Assembly: GCF_013201075.1 (NCBI RefSeq)
Contig: NZ_CP053708.1
Span: 3,911,501-3,975,500 of the forward strand
Source: Lichenicola cladoniae
GTDB lineage: Bacteria > Pseudomonadota > Alphaproteobacteria > Acetobacterales > Acetobacteraceae
Length of the DNA stretch: 64,000 nt
Direction: 5' to 3'
Positions 17,913-29,584 of the stretch are shown here, one piece after another. Positions within the stretch are counted from its first letter, which is position 1. Each line of letters starts with the position of its first letter. Made by a program: the position numbers and the translations under genes. Under the pieces are notes generated by a model. The model saw nothing but the letters and a program-made list of their open reading frames with translations, searched no databases and was not told the origin of the DNA.

Positions 17913-18916
17913 CCCGGAAGGATTGGGGACTTCTTCTTCTCCTGATCGTCGTCGGTGGTATCACCGCGATCCTCAACCCGCGCTTCCTCTCCGCCGTCAA
18001 CCTGCTCGACATGGCCAACCTCATCGGCCTGTTCGGCATCTTCTCGATCGGCGAGGGGCTGGTGGTCATCACCGGCGGCATCGATCTTTCCGTCGGCTCG
18101 ATGTTCTCCCTGCTCGGCGTCATATTCATCGACCTACTGGTCAATCGCGGCGTACCCTGGCCGCTGGCGATCCTCGCCATCGTAGTTGGCGGCATCGTGC
18201 TCGGGGCGCTGCAGGGCCTGCTGGTGACCAAGGCCAAGCTCCAGCCGTTCGTCGTCACCTTGTGCGGATTGCTGATCTATCGCGGCGCCGCCCGCTACTA
18301 CACCACCGACGCCACCATGGGGTTCGGCTACACCGACGATTTCGACTGGCTCGGCTGGCTGGCGTCCGGGCGCAGCTGGGGCATCCCGCACCCGTTCATC
18401 CTGCTGATCCTGGTCGCCGTGGTCATGGGCGTGCTGCTGCATCGCTCGGTGTTCGGCCGCTACCTGTTCGCGATCGGCCGCAACGAGGAGGCCGCCCGCT
18501 TCTCCGGGATCCGCACCGGCGCGATCATCACCGGTGCCTACATCATCAGCGGCGGGCTGGCCGGCCTCGCGACGATCTGCCTGGTGTTCTACACGAATTC
18601 CGTCTCACCCTCGTCGTTCGGTAATTTCTACGAGCTCTATGCAATTGCCGCCGCCGTGCTCGGCGGCTGCAGCCTGCGCGGCGGCGAAGGCTCGATCATC
18701 GGCATCGTCCTCGGCACCGCCCTGCTCCAGGTGCTGCAGAACCTGGTGAACATCCTGGGCATCCCGAGTTCGCTCAACTTCGCCGTCATGGGCACGGTGA
18801 TCCTGATCGGCGTTCTTGCCGACCAGCCCTTTATCCGGCGCGCAATCCCATCGATCCGCTCGTTCCGCTCCGGCAGCGCGACGCCGGCCGCCAAATCGAC
18901 CAGGGCGATACCGTAA
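17909..18916 (+). CDS. sugar ABC transporter permease (RbsC type)
   Basis: Membrane subunit of the CUT2 importer; 335 aa with 8-10 hydrophobic segments. GGIDLSVGSMFSL and the coupling-helix region AIGRNEEAARFSGI, followed by LGGCSLRGGEGSIIG, are hallmark RbsC motifs. It overlaps the ATPase stop by four bases and ends the operon. The next gene is convergent. Confidence 0.92.
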
Positions 18917-18949
18917 CCCTGGCTGGCACGCGCCACGAACCGATCGGTT

Positions 18950-23712: not shown

Positions 23713-23738
23713 GTAACCTCGATGGACCGCACGGCGAA
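23713..23738 (+). promoter_or_regulatory. candidate SigF-type promoter of the DUF1223 gene
   Basis: Exact GTAACC (23713-23718), 16-nt spacer, CGAA (23735-23738). Predicted transcription would begin near 23745, about 50 nt ahead of the start codon. The same motif with the same spacing precedes the MXKDX gene and the b561-yedY operon. Confidence 0.65.
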
Positions 23739-23794
23739 GTCCCGTCATGCCGCGTCTCCTGCATGTGCAGGCAGGCGTCTATCGGAGCATGATC

Positions 23795-24499
23795 ATGGTC
23801 TTGCAAAGCACCGCATTCGCCATCCTGATGGTCGCGGGATTGGCCGTCTCGGCCCAGTCGGCCAGGGCTGCGGATATCGCGCATCCAACCGTCGTCGAAC
23901 TTTTTCAGAGCCAGGGCTGCTCATCATGCCCGCCAGCCAACGCCAACGTCATGGCGATCGCCGACGATCCTACCGTTCTCACCCTCTCATGGCAGGTGAC
24001 CTACTGGGACAATCTCGGCTGGAAGGATACCTTCGATAATCCGGCATTCACCAAGCGCCAGTATGAATACGCCGACGCGTTCCATCGCCAGCAGGTGTTC
24101 ACTCCAGAAGTCGTGGTCAACGGCCGATCGGATATCGTCGGCAGCAGGCGTGATGAACTCGACGCGCTGGTCCACCAGGATGATCGCGGCACCGGCGGCC
24201 CGAGCGTAACGGTCGCGGGAGACCGGGTGACGGTTTCCGGACCCGGCTCGGCTCCCGGCACTATTGTCCTGCTGGTCCGTTACAACCCGAACATCCTGCA
24301 GGTGCCGATCCGGCGTGGTGAAAATGGCGGCCAGACATTGCCGCACCGCAACGTGGTTCGTCAGCTGGTGTCTCTAGGAGACTGGAAGGGGCAGACACAG
24401 ACCTACGCCCTGCCTGCCGCCGGCGAGCCTGGCCTGAAAGCCGCAATCCTGGTGCAGGCGGGCCGTGGCGGGCCGATTATCGCAGCGGCGCGCGTCTGA
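23795..24499 (+). CDS. DUF1223 secreted thioredoxin-like protein
   Basis: Exported protein of the DUF1223 family, 234 aa from this ATG. The signal peptide covers residues 1-24 (ends SARAADI). The mature N-terminus is thioredoxin-like: VVELFQSQGCSSCPPAN contains a CSSC (CxxC) redox pair. It is followed by a YWD region and a C-terminal beta-rich half. An ATG two codons earlier (23789) is possible; 23795 has GGAG at the better spacing. The function of the family is not settled; a periplasmic thiol role is likely from the CxxC. The SigF-type promoter upstream ties it to the stress block downstream. An MFS gene follows 86 nt later. Confidence 0.85.
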   Translation: MVLQSTAFAILMVAGLAVSAQSARAADIAHPTVVELFQSQGCSSCPPANANVMAIADDPTVLTLSWQVTYWDNLGWKDTFDNPAFTKRQYEYADAFHRQQVFTPEVVVNGRSDIVGSRRDELDALVHQDDRGTGGPSVTVAGDRVTVSGPGSAPGTIVLLVRYNPNILQVPIRRGENGGQTLPHRNVVRQLVSLGDWKGQTQTYALPAAGEPGLKAAILVQAGRGGPIIAAARV

Positions 24500-24585
24500 G
24501 GTGGCCGCCAACTCGAAGCCCATGTAACACCGGACGGGCCGGACGGGTCGACCGCACGGCCTTAGGCCCCGACGGAGGCACATCC

Positions 24586-25749
24586 ATGACATCGAGACCG
24601 GACCGAATGATGATCCTGTCGTTGGGCTGGCTGCTTTTCGCCGTTATGTTCCTGGTGTTCGGCACCAACCTGCAGGGGGTCCTGCTGCCCATTCTGGGCC
24701 ACGAGCGTGGCAGCAGCATGGTGCTGATCGGCCTATTCTCGGCAGGCTGGTCGATGGGCTTCGTGCTCGCCTGCATCTGCGTCGGGCAGATGCTTGGCCG
24801 GTTCGGTCATGTCCGCGCCTTTCTCGGCCTCGCGCTGGTCTCCGCGGTTGCCACGGCCCTGCTGCCATTGTTCCCCAACGACTGGGCCTGGGTCGGACTG
24901 CGGGTGATCACCGGGTTCTGCTTCGGCGGCCTGTCGGCGATCGTCGAGGGCTGGCTGGTCGAACAGGCGGGCAGCGGCATCGGCTTTGCGAGTTACATGG
25001 TGGTAAACCTGCTGGCCTCGCTGCTTGGAACGCTCAGCCTCGGTGTCGTCGATGTCGCCGCAGCAACGCCGTTGCTGCTGGCGGCGGCAGCGGTGGCGCT
25101 CTCCGCGGTGCCCATCGCATTCGGGCGGTTGCCGCGACCGCCCATTCGTCCCGTCTTCCGGCCGCGTCTCGGCCTGCTGATGCGCCGGTCACCGCTGGGC
25201 ACGGCCGGCTGTATCGGCGCGGGCGTCATCACCGGTGTCATCGGTGGCCTGGCGCCGGTGTTCGGCATGATGTCGGCGCTGTCGATGCGCGCCGACACGC
25301 TGATGCTGGCAGCCAACTCGATCGGTGGCGCGATCGCCTACCTGCCGTTGAGCATGCTGGCGGAGAAACTGGGGCAGCGGACCCTGTTGACCGGCGTGAT
25401 CCTGCTGGGCCTGCTGGTCTGTGCGCCGCTGGCGCTGATGCCGCATCTGCCGCCGGCCGCCCTCATCGGCCTGATGGGAGCCTTCGGCTTCGCGCAGTAT
25501 CCGATCTATGGACTCTGCGTCGGTATCGCCAACCGCGAGGCCCCGGATCGTCCGGCGGCCCACATCGCCGGCGAACTCGTGCTGCTGTTCGGGCTGGGAA
25601 CCATCGTCGGACCGCTGGTCGGATCGCAGGTGCTGCGCGGCGGCACCGCCTCGCTTTTCGTGTTCGTGGCGTTCGTGCTGGTGCTTCTGCTGATCGGGTC
25701 GATCGGACTCAGGCCGCGTGCGGTGAGCCATCCACTGGCGGAAGCGTAG
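24586..25749 (+). CDS. MFS transporter (YcaD-like)
   Basis: Inner-membrane carrier of the major facilitator superfamily; 387 aa with 12 predicted helices. An opening segment FAVMFLVFGTNLQGVLLP and a loop GQMLGRFGHVR (motif A position) are followed by GFCFGGLSAIVEGWL in helix 5, as in the YcaD/YfkF group. A GGAGG ribosome binding site lies eight bases ahead of the ATG. Substrate unknown. It may share transcription with the DUF1223 gene. Confidence 0.85.
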   Translation: MTSRPDRMMILSLGWLLFAVMFLVFGTNLQGVLLPILGHERGSSMVLIGLFSAGWSMGFVLACICVGQMLGRFGHVRAFLGLALVSAVATALLPLFPNDWAWVGLRVITGFCFGGLSAIVEGWLVEQAGSGIGFASYMVVNLLASLLGTLSLGVVDVAAATPLLLAAAAVALSAVPIAFGRLPRPPIRPVFRPRLGLLMRRSPLGTAGCIGAGVITGVIGGLAPVFGMMSALSMRADTLMLAANSIGGAIAYLPLSMLAEKLGQRTLLTGVILLGLLVCAPLALMPHLPPAALIGLMGAFGFAQYPIYGLCVGIANREAPDRPAAHIAGELVLLFGLGTIVGPLVGSQVLRGGTASLFVFVAFVLVLLLIGSIGLRPRAVSHPLAEA

Positions 25750-25777
25750 GATCGACAGTCGGCGCAAATTTGGGGGG

Positions 25778-25808
25778 CGGGCAAGGCTAGGTAGAAACGC
25801 CTTGCCCG
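25778..25808. terminator. bidirectional terminator between convergent genes
   Basis: Perfect 10-bp inverted repeat CGGGCAAGGC / GCCTTGCCCG with an 11-nt loop, placed between the MFS stop (25749) and the MXKDX stop (25820). Short T-rich sequence follows on the plus strand (around 25817) and AAATTTG lies on the other side, so it can serve both genes. Confidence 0.75.
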
Positions 25809-25819
25809 ATGGCGGTGTT

Positions 25820-26089
25820 TTACTTCGGCTCTGCGGGGGCCGCCATCTTGTCGTTCGCCATGCTGTCATGGGCCATGGCATCGTGCTTCATCGCGCTATG
25901 CGTCATGGCACCGGATGACATCTTGTCATGGGCCATGGAGCCGCCCGGCGCTGCCATCTTGTCATGCGACATGCTGGAATGTGACATCGAGGATGCCGGT
26001 TTCTGCATCGTGTCCTGTGCGTACGCCGTGAAGGACACAGAGCCTGCCATCATGACGATGGCGGAGAAGACGGAAAGACGCTTGGACAT
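25820..26089 (-). CDS. MXKDX pentapeptide-repeat secreted protein
   Basis: Small exported protein, 89 aa. Signal peptide to about residue 25 (TAYAQDT), then Met/His/Ser/Lys-rich repeats (SMSHDKM, SMAHDKM, AMKHDAM) that match the MXKDX repeat family. Its regular His and Met spacing would suit loose copper or other soft-metal binding in the periplasm; this is inference, no function is established. The ATG at 26089 starts MSKRLSVF; an in-frame ATG six codons earlier lacks support. It has its own SigF-type promoter at 26147-26172 and sits next to periplasmic methionine-sulfoxide-repair-type genes. Methionines this dense are also natural targets of oxidation. Confidence 0.85.
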   Translation of the reverse strand: MSKRLSVFSAIVMMAGSVSFTAYAQDTMQKPASSMSHSSMSHDKMAAPGGSMAHDKMSSGAMTHSAMKHDAMAHDSMANDKMAAPAEPK

Positions 26090-26146
26090 AACGAGATCCT
26101 CGATCATGCAGGATCGTCGCGGTTGCGACGATAACCTGCCTGTTCA

Positions 26147-26172
26147 TTCGCCGGCGTCGTTCCGGCGGTTAC
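26147..26172 (-). promoter_or_regulatory. candidate SigF-type promoter of the MXKDX gene
   Basis: On the minus strand GTAACC (26172-26167), exactly 16 nt, CGAA (26150-26147). The predicted leader to the ATG at 26089 is about 50 nt. Confidence 0.65.
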
Positions 26173-26219
26173 ATGAAGATGGTAGAATCCCGAATGTCGT
26201 CGAACGGTCATCCAACGAC

Positions 26220-26978
26220 TTATGATCCACTGAACCAGTTGTAGCCCTGGTTTTCCCAGTAGCCGCCGGGGTTATGGTTGGTGATTGTGATGGCCGCAAT
26301 ATATTTCGGATTCTTGATGCCGAGCTTGGTCGGCATCCGCAGCTTCAGCGGCGCGCCATAGGCCGGCGGAAGTGGCGAGTCTCCATAGTCCAGCGCCATG
26401 ATCGTCTGTGGATGCAGCGCCGTCGCCATGTCGATACTGGTGAAGTAATCATCGAAGCATTTGAAGCCGACATAGCGCGCACGGAGATCCGCACCGATCC
26501 TTTTCAGAAAGACCGAGAACGGCACGCCGGACCAGTCGCCGATCGCACTCCAGCCTTCGATGCAGATGTGACGGGTGATCTGCCTCTGCTGCGGCAACTC
26601 GCGAAGCTGCGCCAGCGACCAGGGACGTCGATCGGCGATCTGGCCCGAGAGTTCGAGACGCCAACTCGCGGCATCGACGGTACGGATGTCGGCCATCCCG
26701 TAATAGGCATTGAACGGGAACGGCTTGGTGATCGCGCCGGGTGGGAACGTTGCGGCAAGATGGTCATTGCTGAACAGGGCCGCCTGGACCTTGTCGTTGA
26801 AGCGCGACATGATTTTCAACGCCTCATCGACGGAGTCGCCATCTTCCAGGTTGCATCCGGTCAGCATCGACAAGGCGCCGAGCGACAGGGCACTGCGCAG
26901 CATCAGCCGGCGTTCGATCTTGACCAGGTCGGGACGAACCTCGTCATAGGTCGGGCGGACCCGCCTGAACGGGTTCAT
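26220..26978 (-). CDS. YedY/MsrP-like molybdopterin oxidoreductase, predicted Tat lipoprotein
   Basis: Sulfite-oxidase-fold molybdoenzyme; 252 aa. The molybdenum ligand is C139 in RHICIEGWSAIG. GVPFSVFLKRIG, YFTSIDMATALHP and GAPLKLRMPTKLGIKNPKYI are conserved in the family. The N-terminus has a twin arginine (IERRLMLRS) and a lipobox LTGC (C42), so it is probably exported by Tat and lipid-anchored. Escherichia MsrP repairs methionine sulfoxide in the periplasm, but a sulfite or nitrate role is known for other family members. It starts in an ATGA overlap with the b561 gene, its likely electron donor. Confidence 0.88.
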   Translation of the reverse strand: MNPFRRVRPTYDEVRPDLVKIERRLMLRSALSLGALSMLTGCNLEDGDSVDEALKIMSRFNDKVQAALFSNDHLAATFPPGAITKPFPFNAYYGMADIRTVDAASWRLELSGQIADRRPWSLAQLRELPQQRQITRHICIEGWSAIGDWSGVPFSVFLKRIGADLRARYVGFKCFDDYFTSIDMATALHPQTIMALDYGDSPLPPAYGAPLKLRMPTKLGIKNPKYIAAITITNHNPGGYWENQGYNWFSGS

Positions 26979-27622
26979 GATGCGGTCTCCCGGTCGATCG
27001 GTTCGGCGACCCGGCCGCCGGTGATCATGCTGCGCAATGTCGACGGGACCAGAGCAACCAGGGCCAGATGCACCACGATGAAGCAGACGATCAACACCAT
27101 CATGGTGAAATGGATCACCCTGGCAACCGCATAGCCGCCGAATATCCACGACAGGAAACCGAGCTGGACCGGCTTCCAGATCGACAGGCCGGTGATCACG
27201 GTGAGCACGATGACAACCAGCACACCGGAATAAAGCAGCCGCTGCACCGCGTTGTAGTGACCTTCGCGATGCGCCAGGCGCAGGGTCAGCGCGGCGACGA
27301 TGTCGCGCAGGATCGCGCGCGGCCCGACCGGTCTGATATCGCGCCGGAAATGGCCGCTGCCGAAACCATAGACCAGATAGATCGCACCGGCGGCGGCCAG
27401 GGCCCACATGGCGGCGAAGTGCCAGTTCAGCGCACCGCCCAGCCAGCCGCCGATCGTCGCCCATTCCGGGAACGTAAAGGGCAGGATCGGCGATGCATTG
27501 TAGATCCGCCAGCCGCTCATGATCATGCAGACCATCGCGGCGGCCGAAATCCAGTGAGTCAGGCGTACGATGGCAGGATGCGCCCTCGGCGCCCGCCCTG
27601 GTTTTCGATGCATCTGGTTCAT
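26975..27622 (-). CDS. cytochrome b561-type membrane electron donor
   Basis: Inner-membrane di-heme cytochrome b, 215 aa, four helices. Paired histidines for haem appear in RLTHWISA, LNWHFAAM, RVIHFTMM and IVVHLALV. The first helix AAAMVCMIMSGWRIYN and the region GPRAILRDIV are typical of cytochromes that serve periplasmic molybdoenzymes. It is not the MsrQ fold, although it holds the same genomic position. It is first in a two-gene operon with the YedY-like enzyme and is preceded by a SigF-type promoter. Quinol is the presumed electron source. Confidence 0.88.
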   Translation of the reverse strand: MNQMHRKPGRAPRAHPAIVRLTHWISAAAMVCMIMSGWRIYNASPILPFTFPEWATIGGWLGGALNWHFAAMWALAAAGAIYLVYGFGSGHFRRDIRPVGPRAILRDIVAALTLRLAHREGHYNAVQRLLYSGVLVVIVLTVITGLSIWKPVQLGFLSWIFGGYAVARVIHFTMMVLIVCFIVVHLALVALVPSTLRSMITGGRVAEPIDRETAS

Positions 27623-27649
27623 GATTGGACGACCCCCGTTGGTCCGGCA

Positions 27650-27675
27650 TTCGGCGGGGCGGAGGATCCGGTTAC
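27650..27675 (-). promoter_or_regulatory. candidate SigF-type promoter of the b561-yedY operon
   Basis: On the minus strand GTAACC (27675-27670), exactly 16 nt, CGAA (27653-27650), about 28 nt ahead of the b561 start codon. A similar element faces the opposite way at 27707-27731. Confidence 0.7.
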
Positions 27676-27706
27676 GACGGCCGGAAACATTTCGGCGCAC
27701 CGTACT

Positions 27707-27731
27707 GTAACCGCCGGGGTGCCGCCGCGAA
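27707..27731 (+). promoter_or_regulatory. candidate SigF-type promoter of msrB-sigF-nrsF
   Basis: GTAACC (27707-27712), 15-nt spacer, CGAA (27728-27731), about 32 nt ahead of the msrB ATG. The spacer is one base shorter than in the other three sites. If used, it would make sigF autoregulated through msrB. Confidence 0.5.
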
Positions 27732-27763
27732 TACCATGTGGAAGCTGGAGAGCGGCGGGACGG

Positions 27764-28288
27764 ATGATGCGACACGATCGACGGGACATCTTGATCAAGG
27801 GCGTGGCTTTTCTGGGCGTCGTGGCCGCGGCACGCGGTGCACTGGCCGCGCCGCCGATGGCCACGACCGCGACCGTCGGCGGTTCGGAGGCCCATCCATA
27901 CGCCGTGGTCCACACCGAGGCCGAGTGGCGCCGCCTGCTCAGCCCGGGCCAGTTCGAGGTGCTCCGGCAGGCCGGCACCGAGGTTCCCTGGTCCAGCGCG
28001 TTGCTGAAGGAGAAGCGCCACGGCCGCTTCCTGTGCGCCGGCTGCAGGCGGCCCAAATTCGACGAGGCCACGAAGTTCGAGAGCGGGACCGGTTGGCCGA
28101 GCTTCTGGCAGCCGATCGGCGGAGAGGTTCTCGTGGCCACCGACACGAGCTTCGGCATGGACCGGTCGGAGGTGCATTGCGCGACCTGCGGCGGGCATCT
28201 CGGCCATGTGTTCGATGATGGCCCGAAACCGACCGGTCTTCGCTACTGCATGAACGGCATTGCCCTGGAGTTCCGGGCCGATGCATGA
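27764..28288 (+). CDS. msrB: exported methionine-(R)-sulfoxide reductase
   Basis: Reduces methionine-R-sulfoxide in proteins; 174 aa. Structural zinc cysteines C91/C94 (CAGC) and C139/C142 (CATC), catalytic C162 in RYCMNGIALEF, and the conserved SGTGWPSF and GGHLGHVFDDGP. The first 30 residues form a signal with RRDILIKG, fitting a Tat leader, so this MsrB would act in the periplasm, beside a periplasmic YedY-like enzyme. Two adjacent ATGs (27764, 27767) are both possible. It is followed by sigF after 134 nt on the same strand, probably co-transcribed. Confidence 0.92.
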   Translation: MMRHDRRDILIKGVAFLGVVAAARGALAAPPMATTATVGGSEAHPYAVVHTEAEWRRLLSPGQFEVLRQAGTEVPWSSALLKEKRHGRFLCAGCRRPKFDEATKFESGTGWPSFWQPIGGEVLVATDTSFGMDRSEVHCATCGGHLGHVFDDGPKPTGLRYCMNGIALEFRADA

Positions 28289-28422
28289 CCGCGGACACAT
28301 GCGAGCCGAGCGATAGTCCCGGACCGGCCATGTTGCGGCGTCGGTTCGACGGTCCTATCGTACCCGAATCGTCCTGGTCATTATCGGGCAAATCCGGATC
28401 CAAGGGATCAGCAGGACATGGT

Positions 28423-28953
28423 GTGAGCGATCGCGGCTGGACCGAGATGATGGCGGCGGCGCAATCCGGCAACGCCGCCGTCTATCGGCGCCTGCTCGGC
28501 GAAATCGACCCGTGGCTGCATCGTTACTTCGTGCGGCGCCTGCCGCCGGCGATGGTGGACGATGCCGTGCAGGACACGCTGCTTGCAGTGCACGAGAAGC
28601 GCCATACCTATGAGCCATCGAGGCCGTTCGAACCGTGGCTCGGCGCGATCGCCCGCTACAAATGGATCGACCGGCTGCGAGCGATGAAATCGTCCCGGAC
28701 CGAGGAACTGACGACTGACATTGCCATTCCCGATCATGAAGATGCAGTCACCAGCGCCAGGTCGCTGGAACGACTGCTCGATGAATTGAAGCCCGCGCAA
28801 GCCGATGTCATTCGCCTGGTCAAGCTGCAGGGCCTGAGTATTCAGGAGGCATCGTCGCGCACCGGGCAGACGATGTCGCTGGTGAAGGTCAATATCCACC
28901 GTGGCCTCGGCCGGCTGAGCTCGTTGGTACGGAAGCGCGCCGATGTCGAATGA
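28423..28953 (+). CDS. sigF: ECF sigma factor, SigF type
   Basis: Alternative sigma factor; 176 aa from a GTG with AGGA six bases upstream. Region 2 is AVQDTLLAVHEKR with RPFEPWLGAIARYKWIDRLR. Region 4 is the helix-turn-helix around SIQEASSRTGQTMSLVKVNIHRG. An in-frame ATG at 28285 would add 46 unstructured residues and overlap msrB; the GTG is preferred. Its stop overlaps the start of nrsF by 11 bases, the arrangement seen for sigma/anti-sigma pairs. As in Caulobacter SigF it is expected to be held by NrsF and released on heavy-metal or oxidative stress; its likely promoters are listed separately. Confidence 0.9.
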   Translation: MSDRGWTEMMAAAQSGNAAVYRRLLGEIDPWLHRYFVRRLPPAMVDDAVQDTLLAVHEKRHTYEPSRPFEPWLGAIARYKWIDRLRAMKSSRTEELTTDIAIPDHEDAVTSARSLERLLDELKPAQADVIRLVKLQGLSIQEASSRTGQTMSLVKVNIHRGLGRLSSLVRKRADVE

Positions 28954-29584
28954 ATTCCTGATCGATCGGCTGACGGTCGGTCTCAAGCCCGTGCGGCCGC
29001 GCAAGCCGGTCATCGACGGGGTCATCATCGGCGGCATCTGCCTGCTCGAGCTGATCCTGTTCCTGGGCATGGGTGCGACGCGTCCCAACATGCCGCTTGC
29101 CATGGTGCAGCCGTCCTTCTGGTGGAAGCTGACCGGGCTCGGCCTGATCGCCCTGTTCAGCGGCGCGGCAGCGGTCATGTCGTTCGACCCGGTCCGCTCC
29201 CCACGCCGCGGGCTGATCGCGGTGGTGGCGCTGGTGGCGATCTGCCTGGGTGCCGGGTGGATGATCGATGCCGGGCGCGGCGGCTGGGGCGCAGTGGTTG
29301 GCCGCCTCGACTGGCGCAACGGGATCTGGTGCGTCCACGACATGACGCTGCTGGCGATACCGCCGGTCATGGGCCTCGGGGTGCTCATGCAGCGCGGCGC
29401 TCCGACCGACCGGAAGGGCACCGCCTGGATGGTCGGGATCGCCGCCGCCGCCTGGGGTGCGTTCGTGTTCGTGTTCGCCTGCCCGTTCGACGATCCGCTC
29501 TATACGGCGGTCTGGTACAGCGTCGGATGCGGGATCGTCACGGTCGTATCGCGGCTGGCACTCCCGATCCTGACCCGCTGGTAG
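28943..29584 (+). CDS. nrsF: NrsF/DUF1109 membrane anti-sigma factor
   Basis: Inner-membrane negative regulator of the SigF-type sigma factor; 213 aa with six hydrophobic segments and a short cytoplasmic N-terminus. C130 (IWCVHD) and C180 (FACPFDDPLYTAVWY) lie almost exactly where I recall the two functionally important cysteines of Caulobacter NrsF (about 131 and 181), suggesting a thiol-based or metal-sensing switch. It overlaps sigF by 11 bases, so the two are translationally coupled. Confidence 0.9.
   Translation: MSNEFLIDRLTVGLKPVRPRKPVIDGVIIGGICLLELILFLGMGATRPNMPLAMVQPSFWWKLTGLGLIALFSGAAAVMSFDPVRSPRRGLIAVVALVAICLGAGWMIDAGRGGWGAVVGRLDWRNGIWCVHDMTLLAIPPVMGLGVLMQRGAPTDRKGTAWMVGIAAAAWGAFVFVFACPFDDPLYTAVWYSVGCGIVTVVSRLALPILTRW

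Follow-up and report, generated by a model that had tools for sequence, protein, structure and literature searches.

A candidate ECF16-type SigF-NrsF regulon for periplasmic methionine and thiol repair in Lichenicola cladoniae and other Acetobacteraceae

In a 64,000-nt stretch of the Lichenicola cladoniae genome (the window), GTAACC recurs 15 or 16 nt from CGAA in front of genes grouped around a sigF-nrsF pair. Do these copies mark promoters of the SigF encoded there, and to what would the genes behind them respond? A motif scan with GTAACC-N15-17-CGAA yielded 5 matches in the window, against 0.09 expected from dinucleotide shuffles. Three have an N16 spacer and precede the DUF1223 gene (23713..23738, + strand), the MXKDX gene (26147..26172, - strand) and the b561-yedY genes (27650..27675, - strand). 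The fourth, an N15 variant divergent from the last of these (27707..27731, + strand), precedes msrB-sigF-nrsF. Positions, strands and spacings were as given in the preliminary description, and the copies face their genes at plausible distances, with ~50 nt from CGAA to the likely start codon of the DUF1223 gene (ATG 23789), ~57 nt for MXKDX (ATG 26089), ~27 nt for b561 (ATG 27622) and ~32 nt for msrB (ATG 27764). The fifth exact match (18913-18939, + strand, N17) was rejected as a promoter because of its position at the 3' end of a permease gene, which converges there with the 3' end of a xanthine-dehydrogenase-type gene. A relaxed scan of the window (GTAAC-N16/17-CGWW) returned the four reported sites and no others, so that the claim of no further promoter-positioned copy, with the N17 match rightly set aside, was upheld. 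The suggested similarity to Caulobacter was also correct: the SigF promoter of that organism is GTAACC-N16-CGAA, with starts mapped by 5'RACE for two operons (PMC3511200). ECF group 16 promoters follow tGTAACc-N16-CGAA (PMC3420878, PMC8315932), and a spacer one base shorter has also been seen at Bradyrhizobium EcfF promoters (PMC3420878).

Profile searches bore out the initial naming of the MXKDX, YedY-like, b561, MsrB and sigma/anti-sigma genes. The DUF1223 protein (23789..24499, + strand; PF06764, E=6.8e-58) has a signal peptide, a thioredoxin fold and a CxxC motif (GCSSCPP), and matches PDB entry 2axo (E=1.6e-30); the thioredoxin fold of DUF1223 has been described (PMC3091736). A gene for a YcaD-like MFS transporter (24586..25749, + strand; PF07690) follows 86 nt 3' of it. 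Co-transcription of the two is possible, and the promoter at 23713..23738 may serve both. The MXKDX (pentapeptide) protein (25820..26089, - strand), a Met/His-rich exported peptide, scored 46.9 bits with TIGR02953 (cut-off 41) and contains 11 Met and 6 His in ~65 mature residues, its leader being assigned by inspection. MsrB (27764..28288, + strand; TIGR00357 above cut-off, PF01641) carries a Tat-type leader (RRDILIKG) and is predicted to be periplasmic; Tat-like MsrB leaders occur in relatives too. No msrA is present between msrB and sigF in the window operon, the simplest reading being that it was lost there, and two other MsrA genes are found elsewhere in the genome. These identities, with a promoter/gene pairing that is kept in relatives, fit the earlier proposal of a periplasmic oxidation-repair programme.

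The remaining target unit encodes a YedY/MsrP-like molybdopterin oxidoreductase (26220..26978, - strand; PF00174) and a membrane cytochrome of the b561 type (26975..27622, - strand; PF01292, E=2e-23). The former has a leader with a twin-arginine and a lipobox (ERRLMLRSALSLGALSMLTGC), has its Moco cysteine in RHICIEGW and was aligned to E. coli YedY (1xdq). Note that it fell far below the cut-off of the MsrP equivalog model (80 vs 207 bits), which we counted against our preferred explanation. The cytochrome also gave weak matches to formate-dehydrogenase gamma models. A search of the genome for PF01794 (Ferric_reduct, the MsrQ family) gave no match, while the control search does match E. coli and Caulobacter; the b561 protein is thus the only visible partner of the YedY-like protein. 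Because the MsrP cut-off was not reached and no MsrQ-type protein is encoded in the genome, we refer to the enzyme as MsrP-like with a b561 partner.

SigF (28423..28953, + strand) is a group-16-type ECF sigma factor with sigma-70 regions 2 and 4 only (PF04542, PF08281). Its open reading frame (28285-28953) extends 46 codons further 5', to an ATG at 28285 that overlaps the msrB stop. We consider GTG 28423 probably the likelier start, because all five SigF differences between two genomic copies (see below) fall before residue 47 and the proteins of relatives have 176 aa. The nrsF gene (28943..29584, + strand; PF06532, E=3.2e-30) overlaps sigF by 11 nt, and the hydrophobic segments of its product are consistent with a multi-pass membrane protein. 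The NCBIfam NrsF equivalog model, much stricter than PF06532, was not reached (40 vs 300 bits). C130 and C180 of NrsF were invariant in an alignment of 18 sequences and correspond to the conserved anti-sigma cysteines C131/C181 of Caulobacter. In characterised systems NrsF keeps SigF at the membrane, two cysteines matter and stress releases SigF (PMC3511200; PMC3420878). A third ECF sigma/NrsF pair is located at C1:1003365-1004575 (L030, L035, L107), its sigma factor being 36% identical. This pair was counted against the SigF-NrsF reading, though no GTAAC-N16-18-CGAA site occurs within the 20 kb fetched around it.

Is the motif informative beyond the window? In the preliminary description, a motif frequent at random positions throughout the genome would have counted against the proposal. 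In the 6.06-Mb genome, a pattern search at N15-17 found 23 matches vs 24 for the reversed control, so that the bare motif frequency is no evidence; at N16 alone, the counts were 12 vs 3. The bare motif is therefore unspecific, the outcome that the preliminary description had set as refuting, and what sets the reported sites apart is their position and conservation. Matches within coding sequence (L002, L008, L010, L011, L012, L020, L021, L022) were rejected as promoters. In the reversed control, one 25-mer, AAGCCGCGAACCCCACAAACCAATG, accounted for six matches on C2 and C3, the smaller contigs, where it probably belongs to a mobile element. In one relative (G073) that is absent from the NrsF-positive list, the N16 motif occurred 20 times vs 4 for the reversed pattern; these copies may reflect a repeat element or another regulator.

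Several sites outside the window are in promoter position. One, at C1:917618, lies in front of a second b561-yedY operon (L025 5672-7110). Another (C1:847764) lies before a gene for a secreted lactonase-like propeller protein that starts 28 nt 3', and a 61% relative adjoins sigF-nrsF behind the motif in G082 (L083). An N15 copy at C1:843997 precedes a second msrB-sigF-nrsF. The description of the regulon as local was thus incomplete, as members are present elsewhere in the genome. Behind the second b561-yedY operon, a 219-aa probable membrane protein without a Pfam match is encoded (L025 7667-8326), and in relatives (L069, L108) this protein has a motif of its own in front of it. At C1:507128-507153 (L001, L026), GTAACC-N16-CGAA occurs ~26 nt before the probable ATG of dxs, possibly as an extra SigF target and possibly by chance. 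A motif at C1:917098, ~165 nt before an AraC-type gene, is an unproven candidate.

We next compared sigF loci across the family. NrsF was present in 72 of 150 sampled Acetobacteraceae genomes. A first set comprised 60 fetched NrsF loci (1.09 Mb, the third pair of the Lichenicola genome included) and a second set 80 named loci (1.01 Mb), the organisms being partly shared between the two. In the 60 loci, GTAACC and CGAA were separated by N16 in 74 cases and by N15 in 2, with 0-2 cases at each other length from 8 to 27, and the reversed control gave 1 match at N16. In the 80 loci, the counts were 143 for N16 and 8 for N15. Across 142 distinct N16 sites (GTAAC-N17-CGAA) the boxes were fixed and the spacer sequences differed. 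The first classified gene after the motif in the 60 loci was SigF in 16 cases, MsrB in 14, b561 in 13, MXKDX in 6 (by similarity, several more being recognisable by eye from their repeats) and DUF1223 in 3. DUF2282, thioredoxin and DUF417 proteins were other first genes in relatives. The N16 sites before MXKDX and b561-yedY have counterparts in relatives, the latter at the equivalent position. A layout of MXKDX, yedY-b561 and divergent msrB-msrA-sigF-nrsF is found repeatedly among acetic acid bacteria, for example on the Kozakia plasmid pKB14400_3 and in Gluconacetobacter diazotrophicus. Comparison of the locus thus supported the proposed promoter/gene pairing, with nearly all spacings N16.

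This pairing extends to DUF1223. Where a sampled genome had both genes, DUF1223 lay within 6 kb of NrsF in 8 of 11 cases. In all 8 such loci the motif was directly 5' of DUF1223, as in the window, or DUF1223 belonged to a run of genes (a putative operon) whose first member carries the motif; in L137 it is directly 5' of sigF. The leader and CxxC are kept in relatives. In the literature searched, where two papers mention DUF1223, we found none that links it to SigF. The sigma operon itself has the N15 spacer here while relatives have nearly always N16, a difference that we counted against our preferred explanation; the N15 promoter is probably weaker. In the close relatives L129, L083 and L086, no recognisable site lies directly before sigF, while strict sites precede the targets. 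Such an arrangement would agree with the weak autoregulation reported for Caulobacter SigF (PMC3511200).

The sigma operon of the window is duplicated elsewhere in the genome. The second msrB-sigF-nrsF copy (L024 7980-9879, C1:843979-845878) is 97.2% identical over 1900 nt and has the same N15 promoter, identical over the 25-mer. It has lost the b561 gene together with the divergent promoter, and of yedY only a 5' fragment is left (90% identical over 265 nt). An IstA-like transposase ORF (L024 13898-15502) is located ~4 kb away. The copies differ by 4 amino acids in MsrB, 5 in SigF and 9 in NrsF, including, from window copy to second copy, H132Y, D133K and T135M beside C130. The family consensus at this position (C-x-x-K-M) matches the second copy, suggesting that the window copy is the derived one. 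In a SigF+NrsF tree, the terminal branch was 0.020 for the window copy vs 0.0037 for the second.

Four things can be read directly from sequence: which genes are present, the conserved motif, the cysteines of the anti-sigma factor and the additional members elsewhere in the genome. They are consistent with an ECF16-type, NrsF-held SigF regulon for methionine and thiol oxidation in the periplasm, whose trigger is probably reactive chlorine or a comparable oxidant. We assign this reading a probability of about 0.87. NrsF would keep SigF at the inner membrane until an oxidant altered C130/C180 and SigF was released. The likeliest oxidant would be a reactive chlorine species such as hypochlorite, an alternative being a thiol-reactive metal or peroxide. 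SigF-RNA polymerase would then transcribe from the GTAACC-N16-CGAA promoters, providing MXKDX as a Met-rich sacrificial peptide, the Tat-exported MsrP-like reductase with electrons arriving via the b561-type cytochrome, exported MsrB and the exported thioredoxin-fold DUF1223 protein; the sigF operon would be transcribed through its N15 promoter. The nature of the signal, the step that frees SigF, what the enzymes catalyse and the supply of electrons from the quinone pool are all inferred. An oxidant is proposed as trigger on two grounds: the target set resembles that of hypochlorite modules (PMC4623255, PMC8315932), and a DUF692 arm is missing from the genome. A more detailed picture, doubtful at present, is that of a self-contained repair chain without MsrQ in Acetobacteraceae, in which b561 feeds the MsrP-like lipoprotein, DUF1223 serves exported MsrB as reductant or partner, and the two sigF copies of L. 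cladoniae have split roles, the window copy with the full cluster and changed residues by C130, the second with the ancestral residues and the divergent effector promoter lost.

Related systems support the core of this proposal and differ in some respects. Caulobacter crescentus SigF-NrsF, the ECF16 prototype, shares the N16 promoter, the two key NrsF cysteines and a YedY-type target (CC2748). In contrast, it also drives DUF2282-DUF692-DUF2063-DoxX operons, and msrA is unregulated there (PMC3511200). No DUF692/MNIO gene was found in the L. cladoniae genome, which thus lacks the metal-binding arm of Caulobacter. In Brucella melitensis (BcrS-AbcS/bcrXQP), the sigma operon is likewise divergent from a Met-repair operon encoding an MXKDX peptide and an MsrP-type enzyme; (T/C)GTAAC...CGAA promoters precede MXKDX-msrQP and the sigma operon, and the system responds to hypochlorous acid (PMC8315932). 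Brucella uses MsrQ and has bcrX in the same operon; in L. cladoniae, b561 takes the place of MsrQ, the MXKDX gene lies behind a promoter of its own and the first gene of the sigma operon is msrB. For Azospira suillum SigF-NrsF-MrpX-YedY1 and its perchlorate-island versions, a hypochlorite module of sigF/nrsF, yedYZ and mrpX (a Met-rich peptide) has been described, to which some islands add exported MsrA/MsrB. The system belongs to another bacterial class and to an island context, and the description consulted mentions no DUF1223 (PMC4623255). Bradyrhizobium EcfF-OsrA is alike in its ECF16 type, Met-sulfoxide reductase targets, cysteine-dependent anti-sigma factor and GTAAC motif with an N14-15 variant, but is H2O2-responsive and has other target genes (PMC3420878).

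Could a heavy metal (Cr, Cd, Cu), in place of reactive chlorine or oxygen species, be the physiological trigger of the same sigma factor and promoters? In Caulobacter, SigF is responsive to dichromate and cadmium, but peroxide, paraquat and diamide elicit no response (PMC3511200). However, its metal-linked targets (DUF2282-DUF692-DUF2063) need the DUF692 that is missing here, and the targets in L. cladoniae are Met-oxidation repair genes as in the HOCl-induced Brucella system (PMC8315932), leaving a metal trigger improbable, if worth keeping in view. A different question is what the b561-YedY pair does. For a similar pair in Acidocella, another member of the Acetobacteraceae, a YedY-type protein and an adjacent membrane cytochrome b were proposed, from the structural similarity of the cytochrome to formate dehydrogenase gamma, to form a sulfoxide-oxidising quinone reductase (nSor), in a passage that describes no regulation (PMC10715153). 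The weak formate-dehydrogenase gamma matches of the window b561 point the same way. Against this, the pair has SigF promoters and is syntenic with MXKDX and msrB (often msrBA), which places it in the repair regulon, and the absence of MsrQ was likewise counted against nSor. The promoters argue for a repair role without proving it, and we regard an nSor in place of a methionine sulfoxide reductase as distinctly unlikely. That the motif is the site of a different regulator, or arises by chance in GC-rich DNA, agrees with the N15-17 count being close to its reversed control, yet is very hard to reconcile with ~2 Mb of sigF loci in which the N16 spacing is strict and the motif stays paired with its genes, and with the agreement between this motif and a sigma promoter already published and mapped (PMC3511200, PMC3420878).

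In conclusion, the SigF-NrsF regulon is of a kind known from Caulobacter, Brucella and Azospira, and the Acetobacteraceae version is a further member. Its less documented parts are the thioredoxin-fold DUF1223 member, b561 in the place of MsrQ and the duplicated sigma operon. A well-founded oxidant-defence regulon is thereby extended to the Acetobacteraceae, where the near-invariant promoter spacing makes target prediction reliable. DUF1223 and the b561-YedY pair, both of uncertain role, become tied to oxidant repair, and the recent duplication of the sigma operon is a natural experiment on the divergence of such switches.
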